The translations under genes and the position numbers were made by a program. A DNA stretch of 64,000 bases. Source: Craspedostauros australis. Taxonomy: Eukaryota > Bacillariophyta > Bacillariophyceae > Mastogloiales > Achnanthaceae. Under the pieces are notes generated by a model that did not search any database, had not been told where the DNA came from, and was given only the letters and a program-made list of their open reading frames with translations. Of the stretch, positions 18,331 to 42,148 are shown piece by piece (positions within the stretch are counted from its first letter, which is position 1; every line of letters begins with the position of its first letter). The stretch lies in the NCBI GenBank assembly GCA_026770025.1, contig JAMXDE010000031.1, positions 496,001 to 560,000 on the forward strand, given 5' to 3'.

Positions 18331-18727
18331 CAGAAGAGAACTCTGTTGTGGTGCTTCTTTCGTCTTGTTGTGTGCTTTTCGTGATGGATGAGGACAGAAG
18401 GATCCAAACCACACGAACCAGAGGGGTGCGACCAAGAGGAGGCAAACGCAGACAAACACAAAGAGAGAAAGAGAGGACACGTGCAAACAAGACAACAACA
18501 CATACCACTCAACCCCATACTCGAGCACATCAACAACAGACATCGAATTGCCACTCATACTACTATTCATCACGCAGTGCATGATACGCGTACTACTACA
18601 AGCTATTGAAGACACCACCATCGATATCTCTGCCATTGGTGGCTCGAACTGCACGCTTCCTTGACAGCCAATCCATCGCCAATCGTCCAACGCCGATCGT
18701 CTAGCAACCATCGATCATCCTCTCAAA
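18331..18727 (+). promoter_or_regulatory. Conserved 5' flank of ANK-BTB copy 1
   Basis: About 400 bases upstream of the start resemble the flank of copy 3 (about 40300-40687) and, more weakly, copy 2 (about 32490-32821). Shared blocks include 'GAGAACTCTGTTGTGGTGC', 'GTGATGGATG', 'ACTCAACCCCATACTC', 'CATCAACAACAGACAT' and 'ACCATCGA(C/T)CATCCTCTCAAAATG' (given in parts). The shared flank shows that promoter and leader were duplicated with the gene. Confidence 0.65.
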
Positions 18728-19612
18728 ATGCCGAAAGTTACAAACAAACAACTTCTTCATGCTGCCTGGGAAGGTGACTTGTTGGTGTTGAAGGAATGGA
18801 AGAAGCAGAACAAGACGCAGAATGGAGGAGTTGATGTCAACAAGATTGCAGACGGGGATGGTTGGACTCCCCTTCATGCTGCATGCGGCAACGGCCAGCT
18901 GGAGTGTATCGAGTACCTCATCGAATCATGTGAGGCGAACACCAACTACGAAGATGACGATCGTGACACTCCCCTTCATGTGGCATGCTGCAACGGCCAC
19001 CTGAAGTGTGTGAAGCACCTCATCGAATCATGTCAGGCGAATGTAAACTGCCAAAACAATGATGGTTGGACTCCCCTTCATTGGGCATGCCGCAACGGCT
19101 ACCTGGAATGTATCGAGTACCTAATCAAATCAGGTGGAGCGAACATCAACTGCAAAGACAGCAATGGTTGGACTCCCCTTCATGTGGCATGCTACCACGG
19201 CAAGCTGGAGTGTACCGAGTACCTCATCGAATCATGTGAGGCGAACATCAACTGTGAAGACAACGATGGTGACACTCCCCTTCATGTGGCATGCTACCAT
19301 GGCGACCTGGAGTGTATCGAGTCCCTCATCAGAGGACTTTCGCCTTCAGCTCACCCACAACTGCAACAACTGCAGCAACGCTTACAACAAAACGAACAAG
19401 CAAATGAACAACCACAACACCAGCTTAGACAGCAGTTGAAACGAAAGAAGCACGAGAATGAACACAAGCACAATAGCCACAAGAGGACCAACATGAGCAT
19501 TGAAGAAGACAGCTCAGATCCTTCCAAACCGAGAACAGGGCAGACACCATCTTCTTGCGTGGACAGGGCGACGAGCAGCAACCAATCAAGGCAAACAGCG
19601 GAGTCCTCATGA
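18728..19612 (+). CDS. Ankyrin-repeat protein, ANK-BTB family copy 1
   Basis: 294 residues. An N-terminal helix ('VTNKQLLHAAWEGDLLVLKEWKKQNK') leads into five ankyrin repeats of 34 residues, pattern 'TPLHxACxxGxLECxEYLIESCEANINC', the last ending in 'SLIRGLSPS'. A Gln/Lys-rich coil with nuclear-localisation-like basic runs ('LKRKKHENEHKHN') follows. The BTB/BACK part lies immediately downstream but one frame off. Ankyrin plus BTB proteins in other eukaryotes act as CUL3 ubiquitin-ligase adaptors; that role is inferred. Start chosen at 'CAAAATGCCG', an identical context in copy 3. This copy has the fewest repeats of the three. Confidence 0.8.
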   Translation: MPKVTNKQLLHAAWEGDLLVLKEWKKQNKTQNGGVDVNKIADGDGWTPLHAACGNGQLECIEYLIESCEANTNYEDDDRDTPLHVACCNGHLKCVKHLIESCQANVNCQNNDGWTPLHWACRNGYLECIEYLIKSGGANINCKDSNGWTPLHVACYHGKLECTEYLIESCEANINCEDNDGDTPLHVACYHGDLECIESLIRGLSPSAHPQLQQLQQRLQQNEQANEQPQHQLRQQLKRKKHENEHKHNSHKRTNMSIEEDSSDPSKPRTGQTPSSCVDRATSSNQSRQTAESS

Positions 19613-20175
19613 TCACTGTCCCATCCATTGAGACACTGATCGACAAGGGAATTCAACATCGCCACAGGAATGATAGCACAGAAGACTACGCGGCCCCCAT
19701 GCAAGTTACTGTCCCTCTCCCCAACCTTCAACCAAAACACATCCGATACGTCCTCCAATACATCTACACAGGCAAGATATCATTCAACAACAACATTCAT
19801 GATGACAACGCCAATGCTGATGACACAAACCAGCCAACTCCCACCCTCAATGGACAGGACGATCTGCAACAGCTCATCCTTGTGGCCAACGAGTTCGGCT
19901 TCTGGCGACTCAAGCTTGTTCTTGAAGCAGAGTTGGCCCACAAGCATCTCACAGAGGCCACCATGATAGACGCGTTGATATTCGCCAATCAACACAACTG
20001 CTTGGTGTTGAAGGATGCAGCAATGAGGATGGCAGCTGAAAGTGAGAAAGATATGTTCACTCATCTAGTGCCTCAAAGAGCCAGACCAATAAATTGGCGA
20101 TTTTTGGCTACAATTGGCTACAGTTGGCTACAGATTTTGGATCCATTTTTCCCTATCTCAGACTTAAAGTTGTAG
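19504..20175 (+). pseudogene. BTB/BACK part of ANK-BTB copy 1, 3' end replaced
   Basis: The frame opens after a TGA at 19501-19503. 'ADTIFLRGQGDEQQPIKANSGVLM' (read in parts) fits the first strand and helix of a BTB domain, and 'PKHIRYVLQYIYTGKI' fits its last helices. A BACK-like helix pair follows ('FGFWRLKLVLEAEL', 'LIFANQHNCLVLKDAAMRMAAESEKDMF'). Compared with copy 2, homology stops sharply at 20068 (...CATCTAG) and foreign sequence follows. The last 36 codons to the stop at 20173-20175 are unrelated. The ANK frame above and this one overlap at 19504-19612; an intron, frameshift or separate gene are all possible. Confidence 0.6.
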
Positions 20176-20702
20176 ACACTCAATCGAATATCTCCTTACA
20201 TCTACGTAAACTTAAGACTCAGGGCTATCCAGGAAAGCAATAACATTATCTTGTTGTTACTACCATCTCGTCGATCTTAATGTGTTTATTGATCCCCTTG
20301 GTGTGGTTTTGCCGTCGATCGACGGACAGACCGGATGTTTTTTGGATATCGTTGGCTACAGTTGGCTACAAGTAGGATTCTACAGGGGTCCGGTAGGATC
20401 TGGCCTCTTTGTTCGAGAAATTCGACCATCCATCTTTGAAGTCTCCGGACTTAGCGGTCTTTGGCTCAATCTGTACAATAGATATCATTTCAGAATCTTC
20501 TCTCCGAGGTGGTCACAATAATATGGTCTATGCATTGTTGTATTGCTATGGTGTGTTGGTATGCTCGTGTTTAGTGCTCCCATGACAATCGGAATGTTGT
20601 TTGACCACTCGGATCCACTCTCGGAAGCATGTGTGAAAGTTAATTTCCGTCATTCGCGTCATCATGACGTCATGAGGAGGACGTAGCAACACGACTGCGA
20701 CC
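20069..20702. other. Unassigned insertion-like DNA between BTB copy 1 and piggyBac
   Basis: It replaces the 3' end of the BTB gene. It carries repeated GTTGGCTACA-type words at about 20107-20133 and again at about 20350-20370, suggesting an unknown mobile element or its end. A TTAA at 20640-20643 upstream of the piggyBac start could be the left insertion site of that transposon. A 12-base palindrome CATGACGTCATG lies at about 20663-20674. No coding capacity seen. Confidence 0.35.
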
Positions 20703-22091
20703 ATGGCAACAGCAACAGATGCAACACCAACAACAGGTGCAGCACCAGCTTTTCTCTACCCCAACCGACATCGCCCTCCTCTCTATCTATTCTCCACTGA
20801 ACATCGCACCATGAAGATCCGCCCTGGAAGCCACGTATCGAGTCCCTGTGGACCTCTTGTGACCTCTGGAAACAGCAAGGGCAAGGTTCGAAGCATTCTG
20901 TATGGTGTTGTCCTCAAGTCTCTCCCCAAGAATCACTGGGTTGTGCACTGGCGTTCCATCAATGCAGTGTGTGAACATGCAGGCACCAAGCCGACTTTGC
21001 TTGACAAGACGCGAGTCGAATTGGACAGCAGCTGTGTCGAAGAGCTCATCCGTGCGCAGAGTGTTGGGAGGGGATCGGTGGAACTAGACAAGCACTACAA
21101 GACGTCGCGGTACCACAACCTCTGCCGCAACACATCCACATTCAGCAATGCCTCTTATTCACACCACACCAACTTCTAATCCCCAGGGAACAGCGCATCA
21201 GCCAGCCATGGCTCAGCCATGGACATCTCTAACCAAAACACGGATGATTCTGCGCCAGGAATCTCGATTTGCAGCGACAATGATGCAACAGATAACCTCC
21301 AAGGCACCTTTGACTCGAGCACAGGCGATTTGCTCACAGGGGATGAATTTGACTAAGTCATGCTACGTGAAGAAGAGTCAGCAGACTACTGGCACATGGA
21401 GGAGAAGAACCAATTGATGGATACAACAGTCCTGGTCGGCAAGCAAAAGAATGCACAGTCACGGATGGTGGTGGATGACAAATCAGTTGAACAGTGTGAT
21501 GAAGAGCCTCAAGCTGAGCTTGGTGTCGCAGGTTTCGACTTCGACAAGAAATGCTTGCAAGACGACACCAATCGTGACCGCATCAACCTCCTGGGACTGG
21601 TGCAACATCTATGGCCTGGCAATTGGAAACAACAAGTTGACACTCTCAACAGGCGTATCATGGCAGGTGCAATTGATGTTGGCGGCAGGCGGAACAATGA
21701 CCCCATGTCTGAGCGCGAACTGTGGGTGTTCTTTGGAATTATGCTCATGGGCAAGCTCAATTCGACCATGAAGCTTTGGGGCGACAGGATGAATGAAGGT
21801 TTCTGTGAGGGCAGGAATGTCACGACACACATGCCTTTCCATCACTTCCAAAACATCTGCGAGCACTTCATCCCGTACTTGTTCTCTGACCTGGCCAGGC
21901 AACACAAGGATAAATGGTGGCAAATCCAACCTGGGGTGGAGTTGTTCAACAAGCGTTGGCGCGACACCATCATTCCAGGCCAGGTAAAAGTCATGGACGA
22001 AAGCATGACCGCATACAAGCCCCGTCTGTCGCCCACCGGAAACCTTCCCCATCTGACGCACATTCCACGCAAGCCAGAACCGCTTTGTTGA
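20703..22091 (+). pseudogene. piggyBac-family transposase, decayed, N-terminal two thirds
   Basis: One reading frame runs through this whole stretch with two in-frame TAA stops (21177-21179 and 21354-21356). The first 158 codons form an N-terminal extension ('GKVRSILYGVVLKSL...WVVHWRSI') that looks like a small Tudor/chromo-type barrel. After an acidic linker comes the piggyBac core: 'YWHMEEKN', 'RINLLGLVQHLWPGNW', 'SERELWVFFGIMLMGKL', 'HHFQNICEHF' and the first catalytic region 'VKVMDESMTAYKPR'. Similarity ends at 'HIPRKPEPL' near 22085, where normal family members continue into the second half of the core. The C-terminal zinc domain is absent here; one is seen at the left window edge in another copy. 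A plain cut-and-paste DNA transposon, now inactive. Confidence 0.8.
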
Positions 22092-22428
22092 GATGTACAT
22101 GTGAGTATATGTCGAGATGTACGTGTATATGTGCATCGTTCACCCATTATTCTCTCATACGTGCTTGGACGGTACAACGACATTCGTGTCGATAGTATAC
22201 TGTGATTCGTCAGAATTACAGTGGAAATGGAACACACAAAAATGAGCAGAATTTCTGGAGGAAATTTGCAATCGACAATTTCTGAGAGAATTAGAAATCT
22301 CGTCCGTCCATCCATCAATGCAAATGTATGGTACCAAGCGAATCTTGAGGTACTTCCCAACTAAACCTCAGATGATGATATCATCTGACAGACTGCTGCA
22401 TCACCAATGGAACATGACATCTGGAGAG

Positions 22429-22887
22429 CAGAAGGACGCCTACTGACGTCAACAGGATGTCATCGTGTCACCACGTCAACATCTGTCTCCAAGTCAGAGC
22501 AGAAGGTGAAGATCCGATGACCGAAGGACATCAAGATCATGGATACGAGAGGTGAAGTTCAAATGGTAAGTACTCATGGAGTAGGAACCAGTAATGAATG
22601 AACGGAGTGTCGGATGCAGAGTACGCATTCAACACGGAGTATCGTGTAGCAGAAGCATACGAAACTAAGAGAGAGAGAATACAAAGAGTAACGAGAGAGC
22701 ATCTCGCGTGCCAACTCATAGTCGGACGATCGAATCTACGAAACAGACCGAAGTGCCGAGAGCACCGGGCAAGAGAACGGACACTGAGAGGATCGGAGTG
22801 CCAATGAAATGAAATAGCAAACAGAATGACTATCAACCAACACCATCTTCCACGATCGTAGGCTTCAGTGAGCGGAACTTGCCAACA
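22429..22887 (+). repeat. Copy B of the ~460-base piggyBac-associated repeat
   Basis: Same orientation and order as positions 1-469, about four-fifths identical by eye. The conserved GTAAGT is at 22566-22571 and the AG at 22860-22861, giving a 296-base interval against 300 in copy A. It lies about 340 bases after the transposase frame ends and is not followed by the C-terminal domain. Confidence 0.6.
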
Positions 22888-24505: not shown

Positions 24506-25186
24506 TGTCAGGAATCGAGGGTACGACTCTGTCGGAAAGATACCCATGATTGCCGCAACTCCCAACATTATTTGTCACACCTTTGGATATTATTCGTCAC
24601 ACCATTGAATATTATCCATTCCACCCACGACACGAATCACACGGGAATGACCCCAGTCTTACCAAGCAAACAAGCCTGTCCTCTGTGTATCAAGAAAAGG
24701 CCACGACATCTAAATCATGTGAAGGAAGATGATGACCGACCCTTTGATGATCACCCCATCTGGAGATCATGGCACGTGTCACCCACGGACTAGAACAACT
24801 CAGAAAGGGCATCAAACATGACATCAATCATGACACCAATCGTAAAGTTTGGTGTCAAGAGATCAAGAGCGAAACGCAAGACTGTGGAATCGTACCGGAG
24901 GGAATGTAGAATAAGGATATGCACGACGAGGTGCATGGCAAGAATGCCTTCGGATATGCATGACGATATGCATGACAAGGATGCCTGCGGACGAGATCTC
25001 ATGCATGCAAGCGATGATCCATGATGATGATGAGCATGAATGCAACAGTATAACACGGTGCTGCTGCAAGGGATGCTACATGTGAAACGAAAGGCAAAGG
25101 AGCTGGAGAGAATGAGCTCACAGTTCTGAATAGTACGATCTAACAACGAATTAGTTCTTACTAACACTAACCCCGGATTTCCAACA
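24506..25186 (+). repeat. 5' LTR of the Copia element
   Basis: 681 bases, TG...CA ends. By eye it is identical to the 3' LTR. It contains nested ATGCATGAC/GATATGCATGAC-type words near 24955-24985. Confidence 0.95.
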
Positions 25187-25265
25187 CGTTTCGAAACGTT
25201 ACGATTGAAATCCTACGTTTCCATCATCACCAACACAGCAACAAACGACTCTCACCATCATCACC
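25187..25265 (+). other. Leader of the Copia element with primer-site palindrome
   Basis: The sequence abutting the 5' LTR, where the primer-binding site is expected, is part of the 14-base perfect palindrome ACGTTTCGAAACGT (25185-25198). It does not show the common initiator-Met primer match (TGGTATCAGAG type). The primer is therefore not identified. Confidence 0.5.
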
Positions 25266-28200
25266 ATGACGTCTTTCCTCGGTAAGACCGATCGTTACAT
25301 GATCATGTTCGACGGCAAGCAATCCTCCTGGAAAGCTTGGAGTGCGAAGTTCCTCGCCCGCGCCAATCGCAAGGGCTACGGAGACTTGTATCTCAAGGAC
25401 TTGAGTGAAGTGATTGTGAAAACCGAGGCTTTTGACCCCTCTCCTCTCGCCTCCATCGTGGGAAGCGAAGAGAAGAAGCTTAAGGCCTCGAAGTTATCTG
25501 CCATGTCTCCCGAGGAGAAGGCGGAGTACAAGATGGCTCTGGCCAAGTACGCGTTTGAAGAACTGACCATGGCAATCAACCATGAAACCACCGAAGGCGA
25601 TGTCGCCTTCATGGCTGTGTTGGGATGCGAGAGCAACATCTACAAGGGAGGAGACCCTCGCAAGGCGTGGAAGGCTCTCGAGCGCATCTACGAGCAACGC
25701 ACTGCGCCAATGAAGGCAAAGTTGTTGGCTCAACTCAACGGGATGCGATTGAAGAAAGGCGAACACCCGGATACCTTCCTCACCGAAATGGAGGTGATCC
25801 GTAACCACCTCAAGCACGCGGGAGTTAACATGGACATGGAGCAGTACCACATGCTCGTGCTCAACGCTCTCGGAAGGGACTACGAAATGGATGTGAAGCT
25901 CATCGAGCTCAAGTTCGAGAACATCGAAAAGCAGATGACCATCGAAGACATCCGCGAAGCAGTGAGTGCAACCTACGACGCACGTCACATCAAGCAAGGA
26001 GGTAGTAAGCGCGAGCACAATAGCAAGGAAGAAATGGCTCTCGCCGCCACTGGTGGTTTCAAGGGCCACTGCCGCAACTGCGGCGCCTACGGGCACAAGA
26101 AGGCTGACTGCCGCTCTGCGCCTAAGAACAAAGGAGGCAAGCCCTCGAAGAAGAACAAGAGAAGTGATACTGAGGACAAGACCAAGTTCAACGGAAACTG
26201 CAAGTACTGCGGTAAGAAGGGACACAAGATCCTCGAGTGCTTCAAGTTGAAGGCAGCGATGAGAGCAGCCGACGCCGCCAACGTGGCCACCGACGGCATG
26301 GACGGAACAGACGACGTCGCCCTCGTGATGGTCGAAGAACCGATGTGGCTACCCGAAGACGCTGCGGCAGACAACACCGCGTTCGTCGTGGTAGATGAAC
26401 CCATGTGGATGCCCGCTGACGACGAAGAAGACGAGATCGGTCTAGTGATGACCGACGAATCCATGTGGTTACCCGACGAAGACAAGTCGGTCAACAACGA
26501 AGAACTGGTGTGTTTCCCCACCGACGAGGCCAAAAGCGACCCCGTTGAGGTCAAAAATGTGACCAACCCAAGAATCGTGACAATCGACGAAATCACGAAC
26601 ATCAAGAAAAACCAAACAATCAACACCACCAACATGGCGCACCACGAGCCGTCCATCAACGACATGGCTCTCGCAACCACCGACGAAGACATGACCGGAC
26701 TCGACCTCGAAGAAGAGGACAAGTACTCTGAAGAGGAACGAGAGGCCCACACCCCAAGTGTGTACGGATACTACGGGCCCCCAGTTGCTGCAGTTGAGAC
26801 TATCAACCGCGAGCACTTCCCATCAAGCGAGGAAGACGATTACACCGACGAAGACAACCTCTTCGACGGGATCGTCTACGAGGATGAACCCCTCAACGTC
26901 GGAGACATCATGGAGAATGAAGTAGCGATGCCTGGAGTCGACCATCGCGTCACCTCCACCATCTACTCTCGAACCGAGCCAAGGACTCTGGTCGATCGAA
27001 TGATCGAAGAGTCGTCCCGCAACGGAGGGAGCACCGCAGGATGGTGCCCACTGTGCTTTCAGCGCGGCCCTCTCTACGCCATGTGCAAGACCTGCCGTAA
27101 CTCGCCGTTCCTCATCCAACTGGCAAACCCCCCTGCAAGGGCGGCGCCAACAACGATCCAAGACATCATGACGCGCCGCCAGAAGCTCTGGACTGCAGGA
27201 CCTTTGCATGTCGCAATGAGATACTCTCTCAGCAACATGATGGTTGCTGATGAAGTACGCTCTGAGCTCGCCCTACTATGCTGCAACGCGGCGCACGCGT
27301 ACACCGAAGGAGGAGGAGAAAGCTTGAACCCTCGCACGCTCTACTACATGATGCACCGCATCGACGTGTTCACGCCAATGCAATTGGTGCAAGCCGTGCA
27401 ACACATCAACGCAAGACTTGAGGAGCTCAACTTGCCACCCATCCACAGAGGGCTCATCGACAGCCTGGTTCAGCATGCCGCAGAGATGCTGATGTGGATG
27501 CATCATCCAAGCGACCAAGGAGTCCGAGACCCAGAGGAGTTCATCCAGCTCCCCATCTACCGAGCGGCCGATGCCCAACCAGACATGGCCATGGTGATCG
27601 GTGACCACCAAGACGCTCAACCAGACATGGCCATGGTGATCGGTGACCTCGACGATGCAAGCGCACTCTGCCACACCATCGCCCCCGACCACCACGAAGC
27701 AAACACTTGGCTGGGTGATTCCGGTGCCTCATGCCACCTCACCAACAACGAAGAGGGAATGATTAACGTACGAGTGGCCAACCACTCCATCAAGATCGGC
27801 AGCGGCCGATACCTCAAGGCAACGAAGGTTGGCGATAAACGCATGATCGTGATGCAGAAGAACGGGAACCAAGCTACCACCGTGCTCAAGCAAGTGAAGT
27901 TCGTGCCCAACCTGTGGGTGAACCTCTTGAGCATCAACAAAGCTCTCGAGAACGGCTTCGACATCAGCAACCAAGGTGTCGTGATGAGCTTGGAGAAGCG
28001 CGGGCAACGCATCACGTTCGACAGACTCATGGCAACCCATAGCGGTTTCGTGAGTGGAGTGAACATGATCAGTGCCCCTCCCCACGAAGACCAAGCCAAT
28101 GTCGGCGTGTCCACCAGGTCCGCAGTGGACATCAACCAAATTCATAAAATGTTAGGCCATGTTGACACTTACACGATCTCTCGCACAGCGGGACGATACG

Positions 28201-31200
28201 GTTGGAATGTCACAGGCAAGTTGCATGCATGCATTGACTGCGCAATTGGAAAACAGAAGCAGAAGTCAATGACAAAACGCCTGCAGCGCCGAGCAAAAGA
28301 AATTGGTGAGCGGTTGTTCATTGATACATCGAGTGTTCAAACACACAGCTACGGACAAGGAAAATATTGGCTCCTTGTCATCGATGATTACAGTGATTAC
28401 TGCTGGAGCTACTTTTTGAAAGAGAAAAGTGAAGTCGGAGAAAAGCTGATCACGCTCCTCCGATGGCTTCACTCCAACCAACAGGCACATGTGAAAAATA
28501 TCAGATGTGACAACGCGGGAGAGAATTATGCCGCGGAGAAACAGCTTCTCGATGCAGGGTTCGGTCCAACGTTCGAATACACTGCCGCTTCCACTCCCCA
28601 ACAGAACGGTCGCGTGGAAAGAAAATTCGCGACGCTGTACGGGAAAGTCCGCTCCATGCTCAATCAAACGCATCTACCGAGAACAGTGCGTGGAAAATTG
28701 TGGGCGGAGGCAGCCCGAACCGCGACTCAGCTCGAAAATATTATCAAGACAAAGACAAGAGAACCAGCATGTGTTCTCTTCAACAACCGCATCCCAACAT
28801 TCGTGGATGGACTACGAAAATTCGGAGAAATAGGCATGGTGTACATCGGCGGTCGTACGATAAAGGCTAAGCTGGACGATAGATCCAGACCAGCCATGTT
28901 CGTCGGATACGGCCAATCGCACGCAAAGGGAGTATATCGAATGCTGAATCTCGCAACAACCAAGATCCTAATCACGAGAGACGTGACATGGATGAATCAG
29001 TCATACGGGCAATTCAGAGGTATCGAGAATGCCAACAGATCTGTGCTGATAGATCTAGAAGATGACGACTCTACGTCGGGTATGAACACCCGAGCTACGA
29101 GGACAACTTGGGAGCGACGATCGGAGACCATCAAGAGCATGGAGGCTGACGACGCGGATCGCAGCAGCAGAGCCGAAGAAATAGAAGATACTGATGACGC
29201 TGCGCGAGGGCAAGATAGCTTGCTCCCTGCCCAAGGGGAAAATGAATCGAACGAAGAGATCGACGATGAATTCGGAAGGGACGACGAGGGGAAAGTAGAC
29301 GAAGCGGCCGAGAAAGAGCCCGAAGACACCCCTGTCGCAGAACCTGTGACACGCATACCAAGGATGCTGAGCGCTCTCGCCGGGTACAACAACGACCCAA
29401 TCCCAGAGGAGGAGCGAGATCTCGGATCAAGTGATGAGTCAGAACCTAACGACAGCGAGGGATATGTGACGCCCGAAGAGACCATCACAACTCCACCGGA
29501 AACAGGAGGACCCGACTTCCACGCAGACGGGTCAATATTCAACAGAGATATCGCAGGTACGATGATAGACACACCTCATGGAATGATGAGATTAGATGAC
29601 ATCATCGCTGCGGACCAAGCATTGAAAGAAGAACGAAATGAGGAAGGGGCAGAATACGCGAATGTCGCAATGCTACTGGACCCCACCACATTCGAGGACT
29701 GCTGGGACCATGCGGATCCCAACAAAAGAAAGAAATGGCGCGAAGCTATCAACAAAGAGTTCTACGATATGGCCAGAAGGAAAGTATGGGAGAAAATCAA
29801 GAAGGACCAGATGCCGAAGGATCGGCGGTGTGTGAAGACCAAATGGGTTTTCAAGGAAAAGAGAAATGGGGTATTCCGCGCCAGACTCGTGGCATGCGGA
29901 TACTCGCAGATCGCAGGAGTCGACTTCTCGGCACACCACGCACCAGTGATACATGATGCTACATATCGAATCATGCTCACGATGAAGATGATATTACACA
30001 TGGACAGTATCATCATCGACTTTGAGACAGCATTCTTGCATGGAGAACTCGATGAAGAAATCTACATGCAATGCCCGAAGGGCATGAGGCACGAAGCCGA
30101 CGAATGCCTGCTACTCAAGAAAACCATCTACGGACTCGTGCAGAGCGCGAGACAATGGAACAAGAAGCTTGTCGACATCCTATTCAAATTGGGGTTCAGA
30201 CAGAGCGAGGTGGACCCTTGCCTACTGATTCGGAATCAGGAAGGGAGACTGCTACTGATCGGCACCTATGTGGACGACTGCCTCTGCATCGGAGAGGAGC
30301 AGGAATTGAAGAAGCTCGTGAAGGATATCCGAGCGGAACGATTCGGTGTCAAAGTGGAGGAAGATCTCGAAGACTACCTGAGCTGCAAGATCATCTTCAA
30401 CCGCGACAAGACGAACTGTTGGGTGAACCAACCACACATCCTCAAGAACATCATCGATACGTTCGGAAGCGATGTGGTGAAGCTGCAACGATACGGAACG
30501 CCTGGGACACCAGGGCAAGGCATCCAAAGGCAAAGCAATGCACCCAAAGTGGACAAGCAGCGACACAGCAGATACCGAAGCGGAGTAGGTATGCTGCTAT
30601 ACCTGGTGAAACACTCTCGACCCGACATCGCCAATGCAGTGCGAGAACTGACCAAGGTGTTGGATGGACCAACAGCCGCAGCATACAAGGAAATGCTTCG
30701 AGTCATGAAGTTCGTGTGGGACACGAGAGAGTATGGACTGAAGATGAAACCGAGTCCACTGACCCAAGATGCATGGAAGATTGCAATATACACCGACAGC
30801 GAATTCGCAGGTGACAAGGACAATCGCATCAGCGTAGGAGGGCACATCATCCTACTACAAGGAGTGCCGATCATATGGAGATCAAAGGCACAACGGAGCG
30901 TAACACTCAGCTCGACGGAAGCAGAGTACGTCGCCCTGTCGGAGGCAGGAAAAGAAATTCGCTTCGTAACTCAATTGATGAGCGACATCGGACTGAAGAT
31001 GCACAAGCCGGCAGATGTGATGGTTGACAATGTTGGAGCGATCTTCATCGCGTCCAACCCATCAACGTCCGCCAGGACACGGCACATCGACATCCGACAT
31101 CATTTCATTCGAGAATTGATTACAAATGGAGAGGCCAGAACCAAATTTGTGCGTTCTGAAGACAACATCGCAGACGGCTTTACGAAGAATACCAAAAAAG

Positions 31201-31259
31201 AGACCTATGAAAAACACAGGGATCACTACATCCAACTGCGTTCCACAATGGATCAGTGA
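25266..31259 (+). CDS. Copia gag-pol polyprotein
   Basis: 1997 residues in one frame, longer than most Copia polyproteins, which are usually around 1300-1500. Order: gag capsid-like region (1-250); two CCHC knuckles (about 269-282 and 312-325); an acidic linker of about 490 residues; protease with the DSG motif near 818; pre-integrase zinc region and integrase core (about 955-1180); reverse transcriptase with YVDD near 1668; RNase H with the TDSEFAGD and SSTEAEY motifs near the C-terminus. The long linker carries repeated 'EPMW(L/M)P(E/A)D' units and a CxxC-x9-CxxC cluster at 594-610, which I do not know from typical Copia. Confidence 0.95.
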   Translation: MTSFLGKTDRYMIMFDGKQSSWKAWSAKFLARANRKGYGDLYLKDLSEVIVKTEAFDPSPLASIVGSEEKKLKASKLSAMSPEEKAEYKMALAKYAFEELTMAINHETTEGDVAFMAVLGCESNIYKGGDPRKAWKALERIYEQRTAPMKAKLLAQLNGMRLKKGEHPDTFLTEMEVIRNHLKHAGVNMDMEQYHMLVLNALGRDYEMDVKLIELKFENIEKQMTIEDIREAVSATYDARHIKQGGSKREHNSKEEMALAATGGFKGHCRNCGAYGHKKADCRSAPKNKGGKPSKKNKRSDTEDKTKFNGNCKYCGKKGHKILECFKLKAAMRAADAANVATDGMDGTDDVALVMVEEPMWLPEDAAADNTAFVVVDEPMWMPADDEEDEIGLVMTDESMWLPDEDKSVNNEELVCFPTDEAKSDPVEVKNVTNPRIVTIDEITNIKKNQTINTTNMAHHEPSINDMALATTDEDMTGLDLEEEDKYSEEEREAHTPSVYGYYGPPVAAVETINREHFPSSEEDDYTDEDNLFDGIVYEDEPLNVGDIMENEVAMPGVDHRVTSTIYSRTEPRTLVDRMIEESSRNGGSTAGWCPLCFQRGPLYAMCKTCRNSPFLIQLANPPARAAPTTIQDIMTRRQKLWTAGPLHVAMRYSLSNMMVADEVRSELALLCCNAAHAYTEGGGESLNPRTLYYMMHRIDVFTPMQLVQAVQHINARLEELNLPPIHRGLIDSLVQHAAEMLMWMHHPSDQGVRDPEEFIQLPIYRAADAQPDMAMVIGDHQDAQPDMAMVIGDLDDASALCHTIAPDHHEANTWLGDSGASCHLTNNEEGMINVRVANHSIKIGSGRYLKATKVGDKRMIVMQKNGNQATTVLKQVKFVPNLWVNLLSINKALENGFDISNQGVVMSLEKRGQRITFDRLMATHSGFVSGVNMISAPPHEDQANVGVSTRSAVDINQIHKMLGHVDTYTISRTAGRYGWNVTGKLHACIDCAIGKQKQKSMTKRLQRRAKEIGERLFIDTSSVQTHSYGQGKYWLLVIDDYSDYCWSYFLKEKSEVGEKLITLLRWLHSNQQAHVKNIRCDNAGENYAAEKQLLDAGFGPTFEYTAASTPQQNGRVERKFATLYGKVRSMLNQTHLPRTVRGKLWAEAARTATQLENIIKTKTREPACVLFNNRIPTFVDGLRKFGEIGMVYIGGRTIKAKLDDRSRPAMFVGYGQSHAKGVYRMLNLATTKILITRDVTWMNQSYGQFRGIENANRSVLIDLEDDDSTSGMNTRATRTTWERRSETIKSMEADDADRSSRAEEIEDTDDAARGQDSLLPAQGENESNEEIDDEFGRDDEGKVDEAAEKEPEDTPVAEPVTRIPRMLSALAGYNNDPIPEEERDLGSSDESEPNDSEGYVTPEETITTPPETGGPDFHADGSIFNRDIAGTMIDTPHGMMRLDDIIAADQALKEERNEEGAEYANVAMLLDPTTFEDCWDHADPNKRKKWREAINKEFYDMARRKVWEKIKKDQMPKDRRCVKTKWVFKEKRNGVFRARLVACGYSQIAGVDFSAHHAPVIHDATYRIMLTMKMILHMDSIIIDFETAFLHGELDEEIYMQCPKGMRHEADECLLLKKTIYGLVQSARQWNKKLVDILFKLGFRQSEVDPCLLIRNQEGRLLLIGTYVDDCLCIGEEQELKKLVKDIRAERFGVKVEEDLEDYLSCKIIFNRDKTNCWVNQPHILKNIIDTFGSDVVKLQRYGTPGTPGQGIQRQSNAPKVDKQRHSRYRSGVGMLLYLVKHSRPDIANAVRELTKVLDGPTAAAYKEMLRVMKFVWDTREYGLKMKPSPLTQDAWKIAIYTDSEFAGDKDNRISVGGHIILLQGVPIIWRSKAQRSVTLSSTEAEYVALSEAGKEIRFVTQLMSDIGLKMHKPADVMVDNVGAIFIASNPSTSARTRHIDIRHHFIRELITNGEARTKFVRSEDNIADGFTKNTKKETYEKHRDHYIQLRSTMDQ

Positions 31260-31334
31260 CGGAGAGGAGAGGACGCGAAATTATGAAAAACGTGAGAGTG
31301 TGAGTGATGTGTTGTCGATGCGACAATGGAAGGG

Positions 31335-32015
31335 TGTCAGGAATCGAGGGTACGACTCTGTCGGAAAGATACCCATGATTGCCGCAACTCCCAACATTAT
31401 TTGTCACACCTTTGGATATTATTCGTCACACCATTGAATATTATCCATTCCACCCACGACACGAATCACACGGGAATGACCCCAGTCTTACCAAGCAAAC
31501 AAGCCTGTCCTCTGTGTATCAAGAAAAGGCCACGACATCTAAATCATGTGAAGGAAGATGATGACCGACCCTTTGATGATCACCCCATCTGGAGATCATG
31601 GCACGTGTCACCCACGGACTAGAACAACTCAGAAAGGGCATCAAACATGACATCAATCATGACACCAATCGTAAAGTTTGGTGTCAAGAGATCAAGAGCG
31701 AAACGCAAGACTGTGGAATCGTACCGGAGGGAATGTAGAATAAGGATATGCACGACGAGGTGCATGGCAAGAATGCCTTCGGATATGCATGACGATATGC
31801 ATGACAAGGATGCCTGCGGACGAGATCTCATGCATGCAAGCGATGATCCATGATGATGATGAGCATGAATGCAACAGTATAACACGGTGCTGCTGCAAGG
31901 GATGCTACATGTGAAACGAAAGGCAAAGGAGCTGGAGAGAATGAGCTCACAGTTCTGAATAGTACGATCTAACAACGAATTAGTTCTTACTAACACTAAC
32001 CCCGGATTTCCAACA
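31335..32015 (+). repeat. 3' LTR of the Copia element
   Basis: 681 bases, identical by eye to 24506-25186. A short purine run (GGAAGGG) ends just before it and may be the polypurine tract. Confidence 0.95.
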
Positions 32016-32489: not shown

Positions 32490-32821
32490 GTGGGGTGTGT
32501 CATGTTCTGTTCCTTCTTCTCGTTGTTGTGTGCGCCAGTTCGTAGTCAGCAAAAGGAAGGATCCGCGCTCTCCGGACAGCGCTGGTGCCCTCTCCCAAAC
32601 CAGGGTGCGATCAAGAAGTGGGCAAACAGAGAAACGAGGAGAGAAACGGGAGAACATTGAAACGAGGCAACCGCACACACCGCTCAACCCCATACTCCAA
32701 CACATCAACAACAGACATGTCATGGGTAGCTCGAACAGAACACTTCCTCGACAGTCAATCCAACGCCAATCGTTCAACGTCCAACGTCAATCGTCCAGCA
32801 ACCATCGACCATCCTCTCAAA

Positions 32822-33802
32822 ATGCAGAATGTTACGAACAAACAACTCCTTGATGCTGCCGAGGCAGGTGACTTGTCAGTGTTGAAGGAGTGGAAGAAGC
32901 AGAACAAGACGAAGAATGAAGGAGATGATGTCAACAAGGTTACAGACAGAATTGGTTCCACTCCCCTTCATTACGCATGCTCCAACGGCCAGCTGGAGTG
33001 TGTGAAGTATCTCATCGAATCATGTGAGGCGGACATCAACTGCGAAGACAACGATGGTGACACTCCCCTTCATGTGGCATGCATTTATGACCACCTGGAG
33101 TGTGTGGAGTACCTCATCGAATCATGTGAGGCAGACATCAACTGCAAAAACAACAATGGTTCCACTCCCCTTCATTGGGCATGCTCCAAAGGCCACCTGG
33201 AGTGTGCCAAGTACCTCATCGAATCATGCAAGGCCAACATCAACTGCAAAACCAGGTATGGTTCCACTCCCCTTCATTACGCATGCTCCAACGGCCAGCT
33301 GGAGTGTGTGAAGTATCTCATCGAATCATGTGAGGCGGACATCAACTGCGAAGACAACGATGGTGACACTCCCCTTCATGTGGCATGCATTTATGACCAC
33401 CTGGAGTGTGTAGAGTACCTCATCGAATCATGTGGGGCGAACATCATCTGCCAAAACAACAATGGTTGGACTCCCCTTCATTGGGCATGCTCCAAAGGCC
33501 ACCTGGAGTGTGTCAAGTACCTCATCGAATCATGTGAGGCGAACATCAACTGCCAAAACAACCGAGGTGAAACTCCCCTTCGTTGGGCATGCTACAACGG
33601 CAAGCTGGAGTGTATGGAGTCCCTCATTAGAGGACTTTCGCCTTCAGCTCACCCACAACTGCAACAACTGCAGCAACGCTTACAACAAAACGAACAAGCA
33701 AATGAACAACCACAAGAACAGTTGGGACAGCAGTTGAAGCGGAAGAGGCAAGAGAATGAACACAAACACTGCAGCAACAAGAGGACCAACATCAACATTT
33801 GA
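32822..33802 (+). CDS. Ankyrin-repeat protein, ANK-BTB family copy 2
   Basis: 326 residues from the ATG in the conserved context 'CAAAATG'; the frame is open further upstream but that part matches untranslated leader of the other copies. The same N-terminal helix ('VTNKQLLDAAEAGDLSVLKEWKK') is followed by seven 34-residue ankyrin repeats. Repeats 1-3 and 4-6 are a 306-base tandem duplication (see the repeat feature). Variable positions sit after 'PLH' (Y/V/W) and in the turn (SNGQ, IYDH, SKGH), which are exposed residues in ankyrin structures. A Gln-rich coil and basic 'LKRKRQENEHKH' tail end at a TGA just before the BTB-coding part. This is the copy with the most complete BTB/BACK half downstream. 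Confidence 0.82.
   Translation: MQNVTNKQLLDAAEAGDLSVLKEWKKQNKTKNEGDDVNKVTDRIGSTPLHYACSNGQLECVKYLIESCEADINCEDNDGDTPLHVACIYDHLECVEYLIESCEADINCKNNNGSTPLHWACSKGHLECAKYLIESCKANINCKTRYGSTPLHYACSNGQLECVKYLIESCEADINCEDNDGDTPLHVACIYDHLECVEYLIESCGANIICQNNNGWTPLHWACSKGHLECVKYLIESCEANINCQNNRGETPLRWACYNGKLECMESLIRGLSPSAHPQLQQLQQRLQQNEQANEQPQEQLGQQLKRKRQENEHKHCSNKRTNINI
32954..33565 (+). repeat. 306-base tandem duplication (three ankyrin repeats, twice)
   Basis: The block starting GGTTCCACTCCCCTTCATTA at 32954 recurs at 33260, exactly 306 bases on. The first two ankyrin units of each block are nearly identical at DNA level, including silent sites; the third differs more. This points to a recent unequal exchange or slippage adding three repeats at once. 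Confidence 0.85.
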
Positions 33803-33825
33803 GAAGATCGGCCATATCCTTCTAA

Positions 33826-34650
33826 ACCGAGGACAGGACAGACACCATCTTCTTGTGTGGACAAGGCCACGACCAGCAACTAACCAAGGCAAGCTCTGAA
33901 GCCCCCATCATCACACTCCCACCCATTGAGACACTGATCGACAAAGGAACCCAACTTCACCGCGCGAATGATGACACTCACGATGGAACTGAACCCATGC
34001 AAGCAACCATCCCTCTTCCCAACCTTCAACCAAAACACATCCGATACGTCCTCCAATGCATCTCCACAGGAAAGATATCCTTTGATGACAGAGTTCGTGA
34101 CAACGCTGCTGCTCACACCGGCGCTCACCATGATGTAGATGCCTCTCACCAGCCAACTCCCACTCTCACTGGACAGGACGATCGGCAACAGCTGACCCTT
34201 GTGGCCAACGAATTCGGCTTCTGGCAACTCAAGCTTGTTCTTGAAGCAGAGTTGGTCCGTAAGCATATCACAAGGGATAACATCATAGATGTGTTGATAT
34301 TCGCTGATCAACACAACTGCGTGGTGTTGAAGGATGCAGCAATGAGGATGGCAGCTGAAAGTGAGAAAGATATGTTCACTCATCTAGATTTAAGCAAACT
34401 GATTCTACAACCCCAACTGATGAGAGGTATTCATATCCTCCGCAGTGGGGGAGCGGAGACTGATGGCATTGACGATGAGTACAGCCACATGTCCATGATG
34501 GAGCTGTACAAGGTCATAAATGAGGATGAGGGTACAACACAAGTGGATTCATACATGGATCGGGTGACATTGGTGGACTTCGTCCGCTCTGTGAAAGCCA
34601 AATCATCCAAAGGGATTGAGACGGACGGCACTGCCGAAGAAGAGGAGTGA
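33826..34650 (+). CDS. BTB/BACK part of ANK-BTB copy 2 (full-length 3' half)
   Basis: The frame opens after a TAA at 33823-33825 and has no good ATG at the beginning of the BTB domain, so it is probably a downstream exon or the second half of a disrupted gene. It encodes 'TDTIFLCGQGHDQQ' (first BTB strand), 'PKHIRYVLQCISTGKI' (last BTB helices), 'EFGFWQLKLVLEAELV' and 'LIFADQHNCVVLKDAAMRMAAESEKDMF' (BACK-like). It then has a C-terminal part absent from the other copies: 'LDLSKLILQPQLMRGIHILRSGG', an acidic 'DDEYSHMSMMELYKVINEDEG' segment and an EEE end. BTB domains recruit CUL3; substrate choice would fall to the ankyrins. The join to the ANK frame is one base off, as in copy 1. Confidence 0.65.
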   Translation, partial: TEDRTDTIFLCGQGHDQQLTKASSEAPIITLPPIETLIDKGTQLHRANDDTHDGTEPMQATIPLPNLQPKHIRYVLQCISTGKISFDDRVRDNAAAHTGAHHDVDASHQPTPTLTGQDDRQQLTLVANEFGFWQLKLVLEAELVRKHITRDNIIDVLIFADQHNCVVLKDAAMRMAAESEKDMFTHLDLSKLILQPQLMRGIHILRSGGAETDGIDDEYSHMSMMELYKVINEDEGTTQVDSYMDRVTLVDFVRSVKAKSSKGIETDGTAEEEE

Positions 34651-35995: not shown

Positions 35996-36027
<32 letters not shown>

Positions 36028-36200
36028 TTGTGTTGATGTTGTTTGATGGATCATGGGTGCAAAATCGAAGATTCGTTGTTTTGGGTGGTGTCAAGAATTG
36101 TTGGCGCGTTTGGTGGGTACTCGTCTGTCTGTCATCCGTTGCTCATTCAACTGATGACACACACAAACACTCACGACGAACATCACCTCTGTGTTGTCTT
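34651..36200. other. Unassigned accessory DNA
   Basis: No gene I can name. Frames on both strands are short and overlapping. The minus-strand piece 35334-35561 ('MSETEIQHMLDGCIREIG...') has protein-like composition but no known family. A (CT)n run lies at about 36001-36028. Confidence 0.35.
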
Positions 36201-36545
36201 CATTCGACGCAACTCTGTTCGACGATGGTGATGACGATGGCGACCCCTCCAATGAAGCCGCATCCCTTCACATTAGTATCACCAACAACACAAACACAAA
36301 CAATCAGACAAACAATCAGACAAGATGATGAGTCATCGACATCCAAGAGGAACTGTGGGAAGGCTCGCCAGTTGCCCCTCACCTTGACCCACCCGTTGTA
36401 CAACTATGAGTCTGGAACCTCCCATGAGTATGATCTACTCTGGGAGTTGCCACAGCAAACCGTCCAGCCTGATACTCTGTTCGAGCCTTCATGAGGTCAT
36501 GAGGTCATGACAATCGAAGTTTCTGGAAGAGGACGGTGTCAGACT
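36201..36545 (+). repeat. Duplicated segment, copy 1 (with 42149-42466)
   Basis: It shares a continuous alignment with 42149-42466. Both encode 'ALxxTLTHP...YE.G..HE.DLLWELPQQ.VQP..LFEPS' in the plus frame, and both keep 'AAGTT(T/G)CTGGAAGAGGACGGTGT' near the end. The preserved protein frame suggests a coding exon of an unrecognised gene. Here the frame stops at TGA right after FEPS (36492-36494). Confidence 0.65.
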
Positions 36546-38684: not shown

Positions 38685-40299
38685 TGCATCACGACACGAT
38701 GGGATGGAATGACATGGAGGGGCCGCTCCGTATTCATATCATACTCATAGAGGTATGGTAGATCCACATCCCTGTATGTAATACACCTACGAATAGACTG
38801 TACTTCTCTACGTATGCTTGGAACAGTACCGCATGCACTATATCTGCTTGTGCAATAGAACACTGTGATGAAGTCACCGGATGTTTCTGGAGATTGAAGG
38901 GCTGGATACTGCTCCCACGCTGCCTCTGCCTTGTCTACGACTACTCGTGTGCGCCCTCTGCGGTACATACCCACACAGGGATGTTGCCGATGTCATTCAC
39001 GAGCAGATTGGACGTCTGTGGTTCTATCCACGCTCCGCCATCAGCATCGTTGTTGGTTCATTGCGCAGACAAAGGACGCATGGCAGCACCATTTTCACAA
39101 GCCGTGCGGTCGTCACAGGGCGGTCGTCACCATGCCAACAGATTTGCACACAGAGCAATCTACTCCAAGTCACACACTGCCAAGCCGATTCAAAGCTACA
39201 GTGCTGATGCCAGCCGATCCAAGTTTCTGGAAGAGGCGATCTACGAAGAGCACATGGCGAACAAGGCAGAGGGAAATGGTGAGAAGCCGCGAGGACCATG
39301 GGTGCTGCGCGCTTCCATCGACCGTCCCGTATCACGCTATCGTTCTCATCTCTTCATGAGTTGCACTCTCGCCATTGCGCCAAAGCTACAGTCGAGGCCC
39401 TCACCAAGTCCCAGGAGGAGTGATCACTCACTGTTGGAGCAACAAATGCCAGGGTCACCATCCATGCCGATCTTCGAAGCGAGCAGTGCCAGCATGGCGG
39501 AAAGACAAGAACCGACGAGCCAGCCCAGTCCAAGCATCCAGAGAGCTTGACGAGCAAAAGAAGAAACCAACCAGCAACACTGTGCAGAGTGCGAGTGCCG
39601 TATTGCGGATCATGGTTGACACAGAGTTCCAAAAGGCACAAGAAGCACACGGTCAGCGATCCATGGCCCATTCGCGCCATATTCCCACATGTCCTCCTTC
39701 GTGGTGCTCCCAACTTCGTTCGTGAGGTGGATGTTCCTGTCGATCGCCTCGGTCGAGCATCGATGCTCTGGAAGTCACGAGCCAAGACGGCGGCACTCAT
39801 GCCTATTGATAGAATGCGCATGGTGTTGTGTGTTGGTGGTCCGTGTGGCAGGAACAGTGGAGGCGGCACGGTATCACTCCGCCTGATGCTTGCTGGACGT
39901 GTCAACTCATCCCCAATATGCAATGTGGTGTTGGTTGGATGTGGAGGACTCTTGTTGCCCGCGCAGATGGTGATGGTTACAATGCAGTGGGATGGCAACC
40001 AGTCAAATCCAAATGAGATGAGTCGCAACCAACACAGGCAATCAACAAAGGCAGTCACATTGGTGGCTTCATCGGTGGCTTCATCGCTGTTCAAGGCATT
40101 GGCTCACACCTCAAGTTGGTGCTTGCGATGGCAGGCGGACGAGGGTCAGCGGTCTTGCAGATGCCACGATGACGCAAGCAAGTGTGGGCCATGGTGCACA
40201 TGGTGGTGGCGGCGGTGGTGGCGACGATGACAGCTCTCTGTGTTTCCGAAGACTTCCACGTTGTTTGCTTCGGATTGGTGTTGCGTTGATTGTGGCCAA
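38685..40299. other. Unassigned accessory DNA
   Basis: The plus frame 38894-39550 contains 'SRSKFLEEAIYEEHMANKAEG', whose KFLEE start echoes the 36.5-kb frame, but no family is recognised. A plus frame over 39547-40230 and a minus frame over 39354-40094 overlap each other; at most one can be real and neither shows a domain. Confidence 0.35.
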
Positions 40300-40687
40300 A
40301 AGAGAACTCTGTTGTGGTGCTTCTTTCTTGTTGTTGGTCGCACGCATTTTCGTGATGGATGGGAACAGAAAGATCCAATCCGCGCGAACCAGACGCGTTT
40401 GATCAAGAGAAGGAGACAAACACAGGCAAACAGAAGGAGGAGACCATGCGAACAAGACAACAACACACACATCACTCAACCCCACACTCAACCACGTGAA
40501 CAACAGACATCGAATTGCCACTCATATTCATCACACAGCGTATGGTGCTCATGCTCATACTAATACAAGCTGTTGCATACACAAACATCGATATCTCTTC
40601 CATAGGCAGCTCCGACCACAGACATCCTCGACAGCCAATCCAACGTAAATCGTCCAGCAACCATCGACCATCCACCATCCTCTCAAA
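40300..40687 (+). promoter_or_regulatory. Conserved 5' flank of ANK-BTB copy 3
   Basis: Closely matches the flank of copy 1 (18331-18727), starting at 'AGAGAACTCTGTTGTGGTGC' and running to the shared start context 'CCTCTCAAAATGCCGAA'. It probably contains the family promoter and leader. Confidence 0.65.
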
Positions 40688-41824
40688 ATGCCGAATGCTA
40701 CGAACAAACAGCTCCGTGATGCAGCCAAGGCAGGTGACTTGTTGGTGTTGAAGGAATGGAAGAAGCAGAGCACGACACAGAATGAAGGAGTTGATGTCAA
40801 CTGCAAAGACAGCGATGGTTGGACTCCCCTTCATTGGGCATGCTACAACGGCCACCTGGAGTGTGTGAAGTACCTCATCGAATCATGCGAGGCGAACATC
40901 AACTGCAAAGACAGCGATGGTTCCACTCCCCTTCATGATGCATGCTACAACGGCCACCTGGAGTGTGTGAAGTACCTCATCGAATCATGTGAGGCGAACA
41001 TCAACTGCAAAGACAGCGATGGTTCCACTCCCCTTCATGATGCATGCTACAACGGCCACCTGGAGTGTGTGAAGTACCTCATCGAATCATGTGAGGCGAA
41101 CATCAACTGCGAAGACGACAATATTTCCACTCCCCTTCATTGGGCGTGCTATTCTGGCCACTTGGAGTGTGTGAAGTACCTCATCGAATCATGTGAGGCG
41201 AACATCAACTGCAAAACCAACGATAGCGATACCCCCCTTCATGACGCTTGCCACAACGGCCACCTGGAGTGTGTGAAGTACCTCATCGAATCATGTGGGG
41301 CGAACATCAACTGCAAAACCAACGACGGCTCCAGTCCCCTTCATCGGGCATGCCGGAACGGCCACCTGGAGTGTGTGAAGTATCTCATCGAATCATGTGA
41401 GGCGAACATCAACTGCAAAGACAACCATGGAAACACTCCCCTTCATGTGGCATGCATTTATGACCAGCTGGAGTGTGTGAAGTACCTCATCGAATCAGGT
41501 GGGGCCGACGCCAACTGCGAAAACAACGATGGTTCCACTCCCCTTCGTTGGGCATGCCACAACGGCAAGCTGGAGTGTATCGAGTCCGTCATTAGAGGAC
41601 TTTCGCCTTCAGTTCACCCACAAGTGCAACGACGCTTCCAACAAAACGAACAAGAGAATGAACATCCGCAACAACAGGTGAGACAGCAGTTGAAGCGAAA
41701 GAAGCAAGAGAATGAACAACAACAACAACAACAACAACAGTCGAGACACCAGTTGAAGCGGAAGAAGCAAGAGAATGAACACAAGCACAGTAGCCACAAG
41801 AGGACCAACATCAGCATTGGATAA
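40688..41824 (+). CDS. Ankyrin-repeat protein, ANK-BTB family copy 3
   Basis: 378 residues with eight 34-residue ankyrin repeats, the longest of the three copies. The N-terminus is 'ATNKQLRDAAKAGDLLVLKEWKKQ'. Repeats 2 and 3 are an exact 102-base duplication. The exposed position after 'PLH' varies (W, D, D, W, D, R, V, R) while the core is constant. The tail has a duplicated Gln/basic coil ('LKRKKQENE' twice, separated by a poly-Q run). TAA at 41822-41824 and a TAG at 41828-41830 precede the BTB-coding part, which here lies in the same frame. If that BTB part is dead (see next entry), this copy may make an ankyrin-only protein. Confidence 0.8.
   Translation: MPNATNKQLRDAAKAGDLLVLKEWKKQSTTQNEGVDVNCKDSDGWTPLHWACYNGHLECVKYLIESCEANINCKDSDGSTPLHDACYNGHLECVKYLIESCEANINCKDSDGSTPLHDACYNGHLECVKYLIESCEANINCEDDNISTPLHWACYSGHLECVKYLIESCEANINCKTNDSDTPLHDACHNGHLECVKYLIESCGANINCKTNDGSSPLHRACRNGHLECVKYLIESCEANINCKDNHGNTPLHVACIYDQLECVKYLIESGGADANCENNDGSTPLRWACHNGKLECIESVIRGLSPSVHPQVQRRFQQNEQENEHPQQQVRQQLKRKKQENEQQQQQQQQSRHQLKRKKQENEHKHSSHKRTNISIG
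40904..41107 (+). repeat. Exact 102-base tandem duplication within ANK copy 3
   Basis: The unit beginning TGCAAAGACAGCGATGGTTC at 40904 recurs without change at 41006, except at its far end. No synonymous differences are visible between the two ankyrin units, so the event is very recent or maintained by gene conversion. Confidence 0.85.
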
Positions 41825-41830
41825 GACTAG

Positions 41831-42140
41831 CTCAGATCCTTCCAAACGGAGAACAGGACAGACACCATCTTCTTGTGTGGACAGGGCGACGAGCAGCAAC
41901 CAATCAAGGCAAACAGCGGAGTCCTCATGATCACTGTCCCATCCATTGAGACACTGATCGACAAGGGAATCCAACATCAATGCGCGAATGATGGCGCCCA
42001 TGATGGCTCTCACGATAGAACTGAACTCTCCCAGTCTTCAACCAAAACACGTCCGATACGTCCTCCAATGCATCTACACAGGCGAGATATCCTTCAACAA
42101 CAACACTCATGACGACACCGATGATGATGACGCAAACCAG
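41831..42140 (+). pseudogene. BTB fragment of ANK-BTB copy 3, frameshifted and truncated
   Basis: It begins 'LRSFQTENRTDTIFLCGQGDEQQPI' (read in parts), the same BTB start as the other copies. Near 42020-42035 the alignment changes frame relative to copy 2 (the region coding 'LPNLQPKHIRYVLQ' is read as 'SQSSTKTRPIR'), because bases are missing. Homology ends at 42140 ('...GCAAACCAG'), where the duplicated segment of 36.2 kb begins. The BACK half is absent. Confidence 0.7.
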
Positions 42141-42148
42141 CATCTCTT

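Follow-up and report, generated by a model that had tools for sequence, protein, structure and literature searches.

The window analysed here is a stretch of 64,000 nucleotides from the genome of the diatom Craspedostauros australis (contig JAMXDE010000031.1, positions 496,001 to 560,000; C29:496001-560000), in which three genes with ankyrin repeats (ANK) lie on the forward strand, each followed by all or part of a segment resembling a BTB/BACK domain. These genes were found to belong to a very large ANK-BTB family with two kinds of copy, termed fused where one open frame runs from the ankyrin array through the BTB part and split where that frame is broken. The core of the repeat is constrained and a few of its positions carry an excess of amino-acid change; in many copies varied stops and one-base deletions in the hinge between the array and the BTB part end the frame after the array, and the array itself has stayed open and kept its pattern of selection. 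The explanation favoured here, to which a probability of about one half is given, is that the fused members are fast-evolving adaptors and that a sub-lineage repeatedly lost the BTB part and persists as ankyrin-only proteins, perhaps as decoys.

The three window genes have a common N-terminal helix, 34-residue ankyrin repeats and a Gln/basic coil, and the open reading frames (ORFs) and repeats confirmed the 5, 7 and 8 units given by the first-pass annotation of this DNA. Pfam Ank_2 scored 260.2, 344.8 and 271.7 bits in genes 1, 2 and 3, respectively (cut-off 27.3), and the repeat units of gene 3 comprise seven with TPL and one with SPL. The parts of the genes, all on the plus strand, are as follows.

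18331..18727, +, 5′ flank of gene 1, homologous to the gene 3 flank by blastn; putative promoter
18728..19612, +, gene 1 ankyrin ORF, 294 aa, 5 repeats and coil; a hinge deletion of class D1 ends the frame
19555..20068, +, BTB remnant of gene 1, out of frame with the ankyrin ORF; homology to the family stops at 20068
32822..33802, +, gene 2 ankyrin ORF, 326 aa, 7 repeats and coil; an in-frame hinge TGA is its end
33803..33852, +, hinge of gene 2; in addition to the TGA it bears a TAA and a class D2 deletion of one base
33853..34650, +, gene 2 BTB/BACK-like segment, full-length, in another frame, 265 codons open
40297..40687, +, 5′ flank of gene 3, homologous to the gene 1 flank
40688..41824, +, gene 3 ankyrin ORF, 378 aa, 8 repeats and coil; a hinge TAA is its end, followed by a TAG
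41873..42141, +, gene 3 BTB remnant, with frame changes along it

The frame from the ankyrin array into the BTB part is broken in all three genes. The ankyrin frame stops 53 bases before the BTB segment in gene 2 and 51 bases before it in gene 3, and in gene 1 it enters the segment by 55 bases in the wrong frame. The 3′ part of the BTB segment is physically gone from genes 1 and 3, and a full-length segment was present only in gene 2; in gene 3 the segment is cut at about 42141, and from about 42145 it joins sequence resembling 36197-36544 (79%), a stretch some 2.1 kb farther along in gene 2. The earlier statement that a BTB/BACK part is coded in the same protein was therefore not borne out, and the role of BTB substrate adaptor proposed for genes 1-3 is left unsupported, because the frame is broken in each of them. 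As the sequence reads, splicing would be needed for any of the three to make an ANK-BTB protein, and for genes 1 and 3 even this could not supply a whole BTB; the window genes are probably ankyrin-only members. Of the common promoter that had been proposed, the homology of the 5′ flanks stood (18331-19330 against 40297-41287 in genes 1 and 3, 79% by blastn; gene 2 is homologous to this flank from about 32603), and the promoter function stays putative.

The genome searched comprised 74.8 Mb in 90 contigs, and the family proved far larger than the three members first supposed. At least 146 BTB matches were obtained with the gene 2 BTB segment as query (best 144 of 390 candidates), 55-85% identical to the query, the query itself aside, and at least 150 N-terminal matches with a query of 71 N-terminal residues from gene 3 (best 150 of 2967). 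Among the N-terminal matches listed, 149 of 150 were stop-free inside and 4 of 150 stood in a frame shorter than 200 aa. Ank_2 matches of any kind numbered at least 277 (best 150 of 2529). The BTB matches listed lay close together, with a median nearest-neighbour distance of 16.6 kb. Matches of equal score recurred at C19:15610-61475 and C8:2571536-2595090, three of those on C19 being spaced 7,827 bases apart, and these blocks reflect either recent tandem amplification or a duplicate in the assembly. On contigs longer than 600 kb and of known length, 14 of 56 split and 4 of 35 fused copies lay within 50 kb of a contig end (5.8% expected), an enrichment that is inflated because duplicated blocks are counted.

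Fused members have, in one open frame, the N-terminal helix, 34-residue repeats in varying number, the coil and the BTB/BACK-like part. Among the BTB matches listed (at least 146), the open frame holding the match reached 430 aa or more in 61 and fell short of that in 85; two of the 61 long-frame copies (C38:340380 and C82:72361) proved split on reading. When N-terminal and BTB matches within 8 kb were paired, 100 pairs were found among the matches listed, 31 in one frame and 69 split, and 50 N-terminal and 46 BTB matches had no partner. In two of the 69 split pairs the open frame is much too short to span the interval to the BTB: C16:1058322, whose BTB is 4.1 kb away and may be wrongly paired, and C32:230794, which is really fused. 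These fused and split counts are not unbiased, because the lists are incomplete and ranked by likeness to the split copies of the window. A sample of 51 copies, 11 fused and 40 split, was taken for closer reading; it consisted of 24 of the 30 best BTB matches (excluded were the copy from the window itself and five belonging to a single repeated block), the last 14 list places, 10 hand-picked split copies and the 3 window genes, and it retains the near-identical rows L013/L015 and L044/L045 (in the BTB).

Variation within the repeats was measured on 354 units (316 distinct) from 62 ORF segments, the unit being written D-G-x-T-P-L-H-x-A-C-x-x-G-H and so on. Entropy peaked at unit positions 1, 3, 8, 11 and 12 (3.1, 3.4, 3.6, 3.7 and 2.7 bits), was 0-1.45 bits at 17 core positions, and was also raised at positions 33 (2.65 bits), 26 (2.4) and 14 (2.3). 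The codons at the five peak positions formed 295 distinct sets among the 316 units. Over 244 nearest-neighbour unit pairs, the ratio of nonsynonymous to synonymous differences per site (pN/pS) at the five positions was 2.17 (95% interval 1.88-2.57) against their own silent sites and 4.2 if all silent sites were used, and that at the remaining positions was 0.75 (0.68-0.82) with all silent sites. By class, the five positions gave 2.44 (2.04-2.95) in split and 2.13 (1.65-2.98) in fused copies, and for the strict core of 17 positions the values were 0.44 (0.36-0.53) among split copies and 0.32 (0.23-0.44) among fused ones. The earlier idea of a rapidly diversifying family, in which presumably exposed positions vary and the core is fixed, is supported by these values (about 2.2 against 0.44 and 0.32); its members are neither confined to the window nor neutral at all sites. 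In 13 pairs of split copies with a common hinge lesion, in several of which the repeats were alignable only in part, pN/pS was 2.23 at the five positions, 0.45 in the core and 0.70 in the BTB.

Between units of different loci that were nearest to each other in framework, 58% of bases 1 and 2 of the hypervariable codons differed, as did 2% of those in the core; the corresponding values for random unit pairs were 62% and 13%. Targeted mutation of the type made by diversity-generating retroelements was considered because the hypervariable codons vary at bases 1 and 2 and base 3 is often fixed, and it was not supported, since variation does not generally extend to framework adenines (base 1 of Thr4 was A in 316 of 316 units). 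When gene 3 was aligned to a designed ankyrin repeat protein (DARPin, 6mol), unit positions 1, 3, 11 and 12 corresponded to the residues that differ between its modules. These four positions are presumably those randomised in DARPin libraries, which line the binding face. The conserved TPLH scaffold is also common to both; the DARPins, however, are engineered, and unit position 8, hypervariable in the diatom family, corresponds to an invariant Leu in the aligned modules.

In the 40 split copies sampled, the ankyrin ORF was open to the last repeat in every case (10,313 codons free of stops) and no off-frame ankyrin match was found. An ATG stood at the homologous place in 35 of them; in L013, L015, L035, L060 and L062 the start lay beyond the stretch of sequence read or was not found. 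Relative to the start of the BTB, the stop of the ankyrin frame ranged from 188 bases upstream to 82 bases downstream. In-frame stops were present in the BTB part of 12 of the 40 copies and in the ankyrin part of none (Fisher p = 0.0002, for copies that are not independent of one another). At least eight different lesions of the hinge and coil were distinguished among the split copies: an in-frame TGA, an in-frame TAA, the common one-base deletions D1 and D2, other and rarer deletions of one base, an insertion of one base, another of two, the TAA/TAG pair of gene 3, and stops lying earlier, within the coil. Because these classes differ in kind, some being in-frame stops, some one base short and some other shifts, programmed frameshifting or stop read-through was judged unlikely.

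The lesions were also counted by four genome-wide pattern searches, in which 1 or 2 mismatches were permitted. D1 was found at 22 places and D2 at 29; TAA or TGA stood at one same hinge codon in 34 of 53 places listed; and of 59 places listed for the hinge pattern, 27 were free of lesions in the segment, 2 had TAG, and 30 repeated stop-bearing places already counted. By hand count 87 of 114 hinge places were thus lesioned, a figure that covers one short hinge segment of one hinge type (lesions outside the segment and the other type, as in L041-L050, being left out) and counts repeated blocks repeatedly. The hinge TGA occurred on three backgrounds, namely beside D1, beside D2 and in the absence of both. 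In a quick tree of the BTB part (51 rows), 34 split copies fell into one group (Shimodaira-Hasegawa-like approximate likelihood ratio test, SH-aLRT, 95), and the fused or split label changed 4 times against a mean of 10.2 when shuffled; genes 1 and 3 stood on long, uncertain branches. Since the 34 split copies of this group have no common lesion, the frame was broken repeatedly, or recombination carried the lesions from copy to copy.

This distribution of lesions bears on a somewhat unlikely alternative, under which a family duplicating fast by segmental duplication, helped by transposons, has left the split copies as pseudogenes, with breaks that are recent or repeats that have been homogenised. 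The lesions concentrate in the hinge and are not gene-wide; stops were found in the BTB of split copies and in none of their ankyrin codons; and the strict core keeps a low pN/pS both in split copies at large and in the pairs sharing a lesion. Lesions over the whole coding region and neutral substitution, the marks of a pseudogene, were accordingly not found in the ankyrin array, and with no ankyrin lesion in 40 split copies a whole-gene pseudogene reading was not preferred, although it remains a rival. Identical blocks do recur, such as that on C19 with its 7,827-base spacing, and the BTB segments of genes 1 and 3 have physically lost their 3′ parts, both of which speak for it.

If a sub-lineage instead persists as ankyrin-only proteins, a division of action between the two kinds of copy can be proposed. 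In a fused member, which would be a substrate adaptor of the CUL3 type, the ankyrin face would choose the target and the BTB part would bring the cullin ligase. A break in the hinge terminates the ankyrin frame beyond the array, which has stayed under selection, and a split member, translated as a free ankyrin-only binder, would bind its target without destruction and so act as a decoy or blocker. Such decoy or bind-only action appears the likeliest reading of the split class from its sequence. The driver may be recognition of changing foreign or self proteins, a suggestion taken from the pattern alone. A bolder form of the proposal is possible but doubtful: more than 100 DARPin-like binders would have two outputs, and hinge breakage would have been repeatedly selected as a switch from bind-and-destroy to bind-only.

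Assignment of the C-terminal part to the BTB/BACK type was based on Pfam. With E allowed up to 0.1, all 7 fused members scanned matched PF00651 (BTB), the first of them with 23.9 bits (cut-off 20.5), and the BTB remnant of gene 1 matched the same family above cut-off at 23.3 bits; the gene 2 BTB segment gave no match to PF00651 at E up to 1. In the putative BACK region of the fused members, PF07707 was matched, under the same limit on E, in 5 of 7 (best 1.2e-4) and PF24570 in 6 of 7 (best 0.0014). Solved BTB/BACK and SKP1-like chains gave weak profile matches (E 0.23-0.41), and three near-full-length cullins were found in the genome.

Several results weigh against ankyrin-only persistence or against the selection argument on which it is built. 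The five positions were picked post hoc, once the entropies were known, and position 33 (2.65 bits) almost equals position 12 (2.71) in variability; the estimates assume freedom from recombination, and the rate change at the five positions could partly be repeat shuffling. Over all non-hypervariable positions the repeats of split copies are near neutral (0.91, 0.80-1.03). The one broken ankyrin array was seen in a fused copy, C32, where extra sequence interrupts the array near its start. AlphaFold2 gave no usable structure for the gene 2 BTB segment (two-sequence input; mean predicted local distance difference test score, pLDDT, 33). The BTB is as constrained in split as in fused copies (pN/pS 0.64 over 28 pairs versus 0.65 over 8 pairs), which argues against a long-dead BTB, since such a segment would lose its constraint. 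This equality is what recent breaks in pseudogenes predict, and a constrained BTB in split copies also favours two further alternatives.

In the first, which we consider improbable, the hinge is spliced out of the split copies, so that an ANK-BTB protein is still made and the lesions are harmless changes in an intron. A stop-free GT..AG pair able to rejoin the frames, each with a GTR donor, is available in 36 of the 40 split copies, a further point against loss of the BTB; however, some such pairs are expected by chance, 4 of the 40 copies have none, and a consensus-like donor (GTRAG, GTRNGT or GTATGT) occurs in only 4 of 40. The hinge is moreover coding sequence in fused copies, and restoring the frame across it would be of little avail where the BTB bears stops (12 of 40) or has lost its 3′ part, as in genes 1 and 3. 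In the second, which is more improbable still, split and fused copies are interchangeable, gene conversion keeping the BTB segments as a reservoir from which re-fusion occasionally occurs. The hinge TGA on three backgrounds is what recombination would produce, and the closeness of the copies (16.6 kb) is in keeping with exchange; against it, fused and split copies cluster on the BTB tree (4 label changes versus 10.2 shuffled), and no re-fusion was seen.

As regards C32, the inserted sequence (L001 976-1293) was observed to carry one 30-residue reading twice, 265 bases apart.

A fixed scaffold with a hypervariable face is already known from fungal NOD-like receptors (NLRs) and nematode ubiquitin adaptors, among others. 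In fungal NLRs the ankyrin, WD and TPR repeats are described as near-identical and variable in number, with a few positively selected positions per repeat; at a Podospora ankyrin locus five such positions lie mostly on the concave face (PMC4986451). The diatom repeats resemble them in near-identity, variable number and hypervariable positions with positive selection, but in the fungal receptors as described there the repeats end NOD (NACHT/NB-ARC) receptors, whereas in the diatom they precede a BTB whose frame is often lost. Selection in nematode MATH-BTB and F-box adaptors is reported for the substrate-binding and not the cullin-binding domain (PMC4334554). Those families, as presented in that source, are very large and of fast turnover like the diatom family; they differ in that the diatom substrate domain is ankyrin, its BTB has a moderately low pN/pS (0.64-0.65), and copies without the adaptor part are prominent. 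LRR-ROCO proteins of brown algae, which are stramenopile relatives of diatoms, are described as repeat-bearing recognition candidates under diversifying selection; their LRRs are encoded by separate exons, which are shuffled and alternatively spliced, and the abstract names neither ankyrin nor BTB (PMC11378527).

The diatom family behaves like these three systems and is assigned to none of them, because no NOD, MATH or LRR family was matched in the parts scanned, save for LRR_2 below threshold. NOD and MATH families were absent from the Pfam matches of the window ORFs and of the C-terminal parts of 7 fused members, as were NACHT and NB-ARC, and the only LRR match in window ORFs was one sub-threshold LRR_2 hit (0.018) in gene 3. 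Ankyrin repeats and BTB are combined in ABTB1/BPOZ and NPR1, which form small, conserved families. Among diatoms, ankyrin-repeat proteins of silica morphogenesis (dAnks) have been described (PMC11151724); they resemble the present family, as far as a comparison by description goes, in being ankyrin-repeat proteins of diatoms. In the open-licence literature searched, no title or abstract concerned a diatom ANK-BTB expansion, and the passages found treat ankyrin proteins only in general terms. Given its size, its variation at positions that engineers also vary in DARPins and its repeated uncoupling from BTB, the family would stand as a candidate for self/non-self or antiviral recognition in a photosynthetic protist, one that offers more than 100 natural binders. 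Gene predictors may wrongly fuse or omit genes broken at the hinge, and caution is needed in the use of their models.

Mobile DNA, which the first-pass annotation had placed beside these genes, was present in the window as follows.

21360..22091, +, transposase fragment, DDE_Tnp_1_7, piggyBac-type (Pfam 2.7e-7)
about 24506..32015, +, Copia long terminal repeat (LTR) retrotransposon just upstream of gene 2, with a long ORF at 25266-31259

The two Copia LTRs (24506-25186 and 31335-32015) are identical over 681 bp and flanked by the 6-bp repeat TATGGA, so the insertion is probably recent. Elsewhere in the window a further ankyrin ORF of 365 aa was found at 62899-63996 (minus strand), and an ORF of 2041 aa at 10518-16643 (minus strand) matched no Pfam family with E at or below 0.001. 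A phytochelatin synthase gene (5011-6732, plus strand) and a gene with an adenosine-deaminase (editase) domain (50487-52820, plus strand) are ordinary-looking neighbours. In the genome at large, 88 matches to the silicon-transporter family PF03842 were obtained, some 30 being close to full length (e.g. on C2, C9, C11, C24, C37 and C61), which seems many for a diatom.

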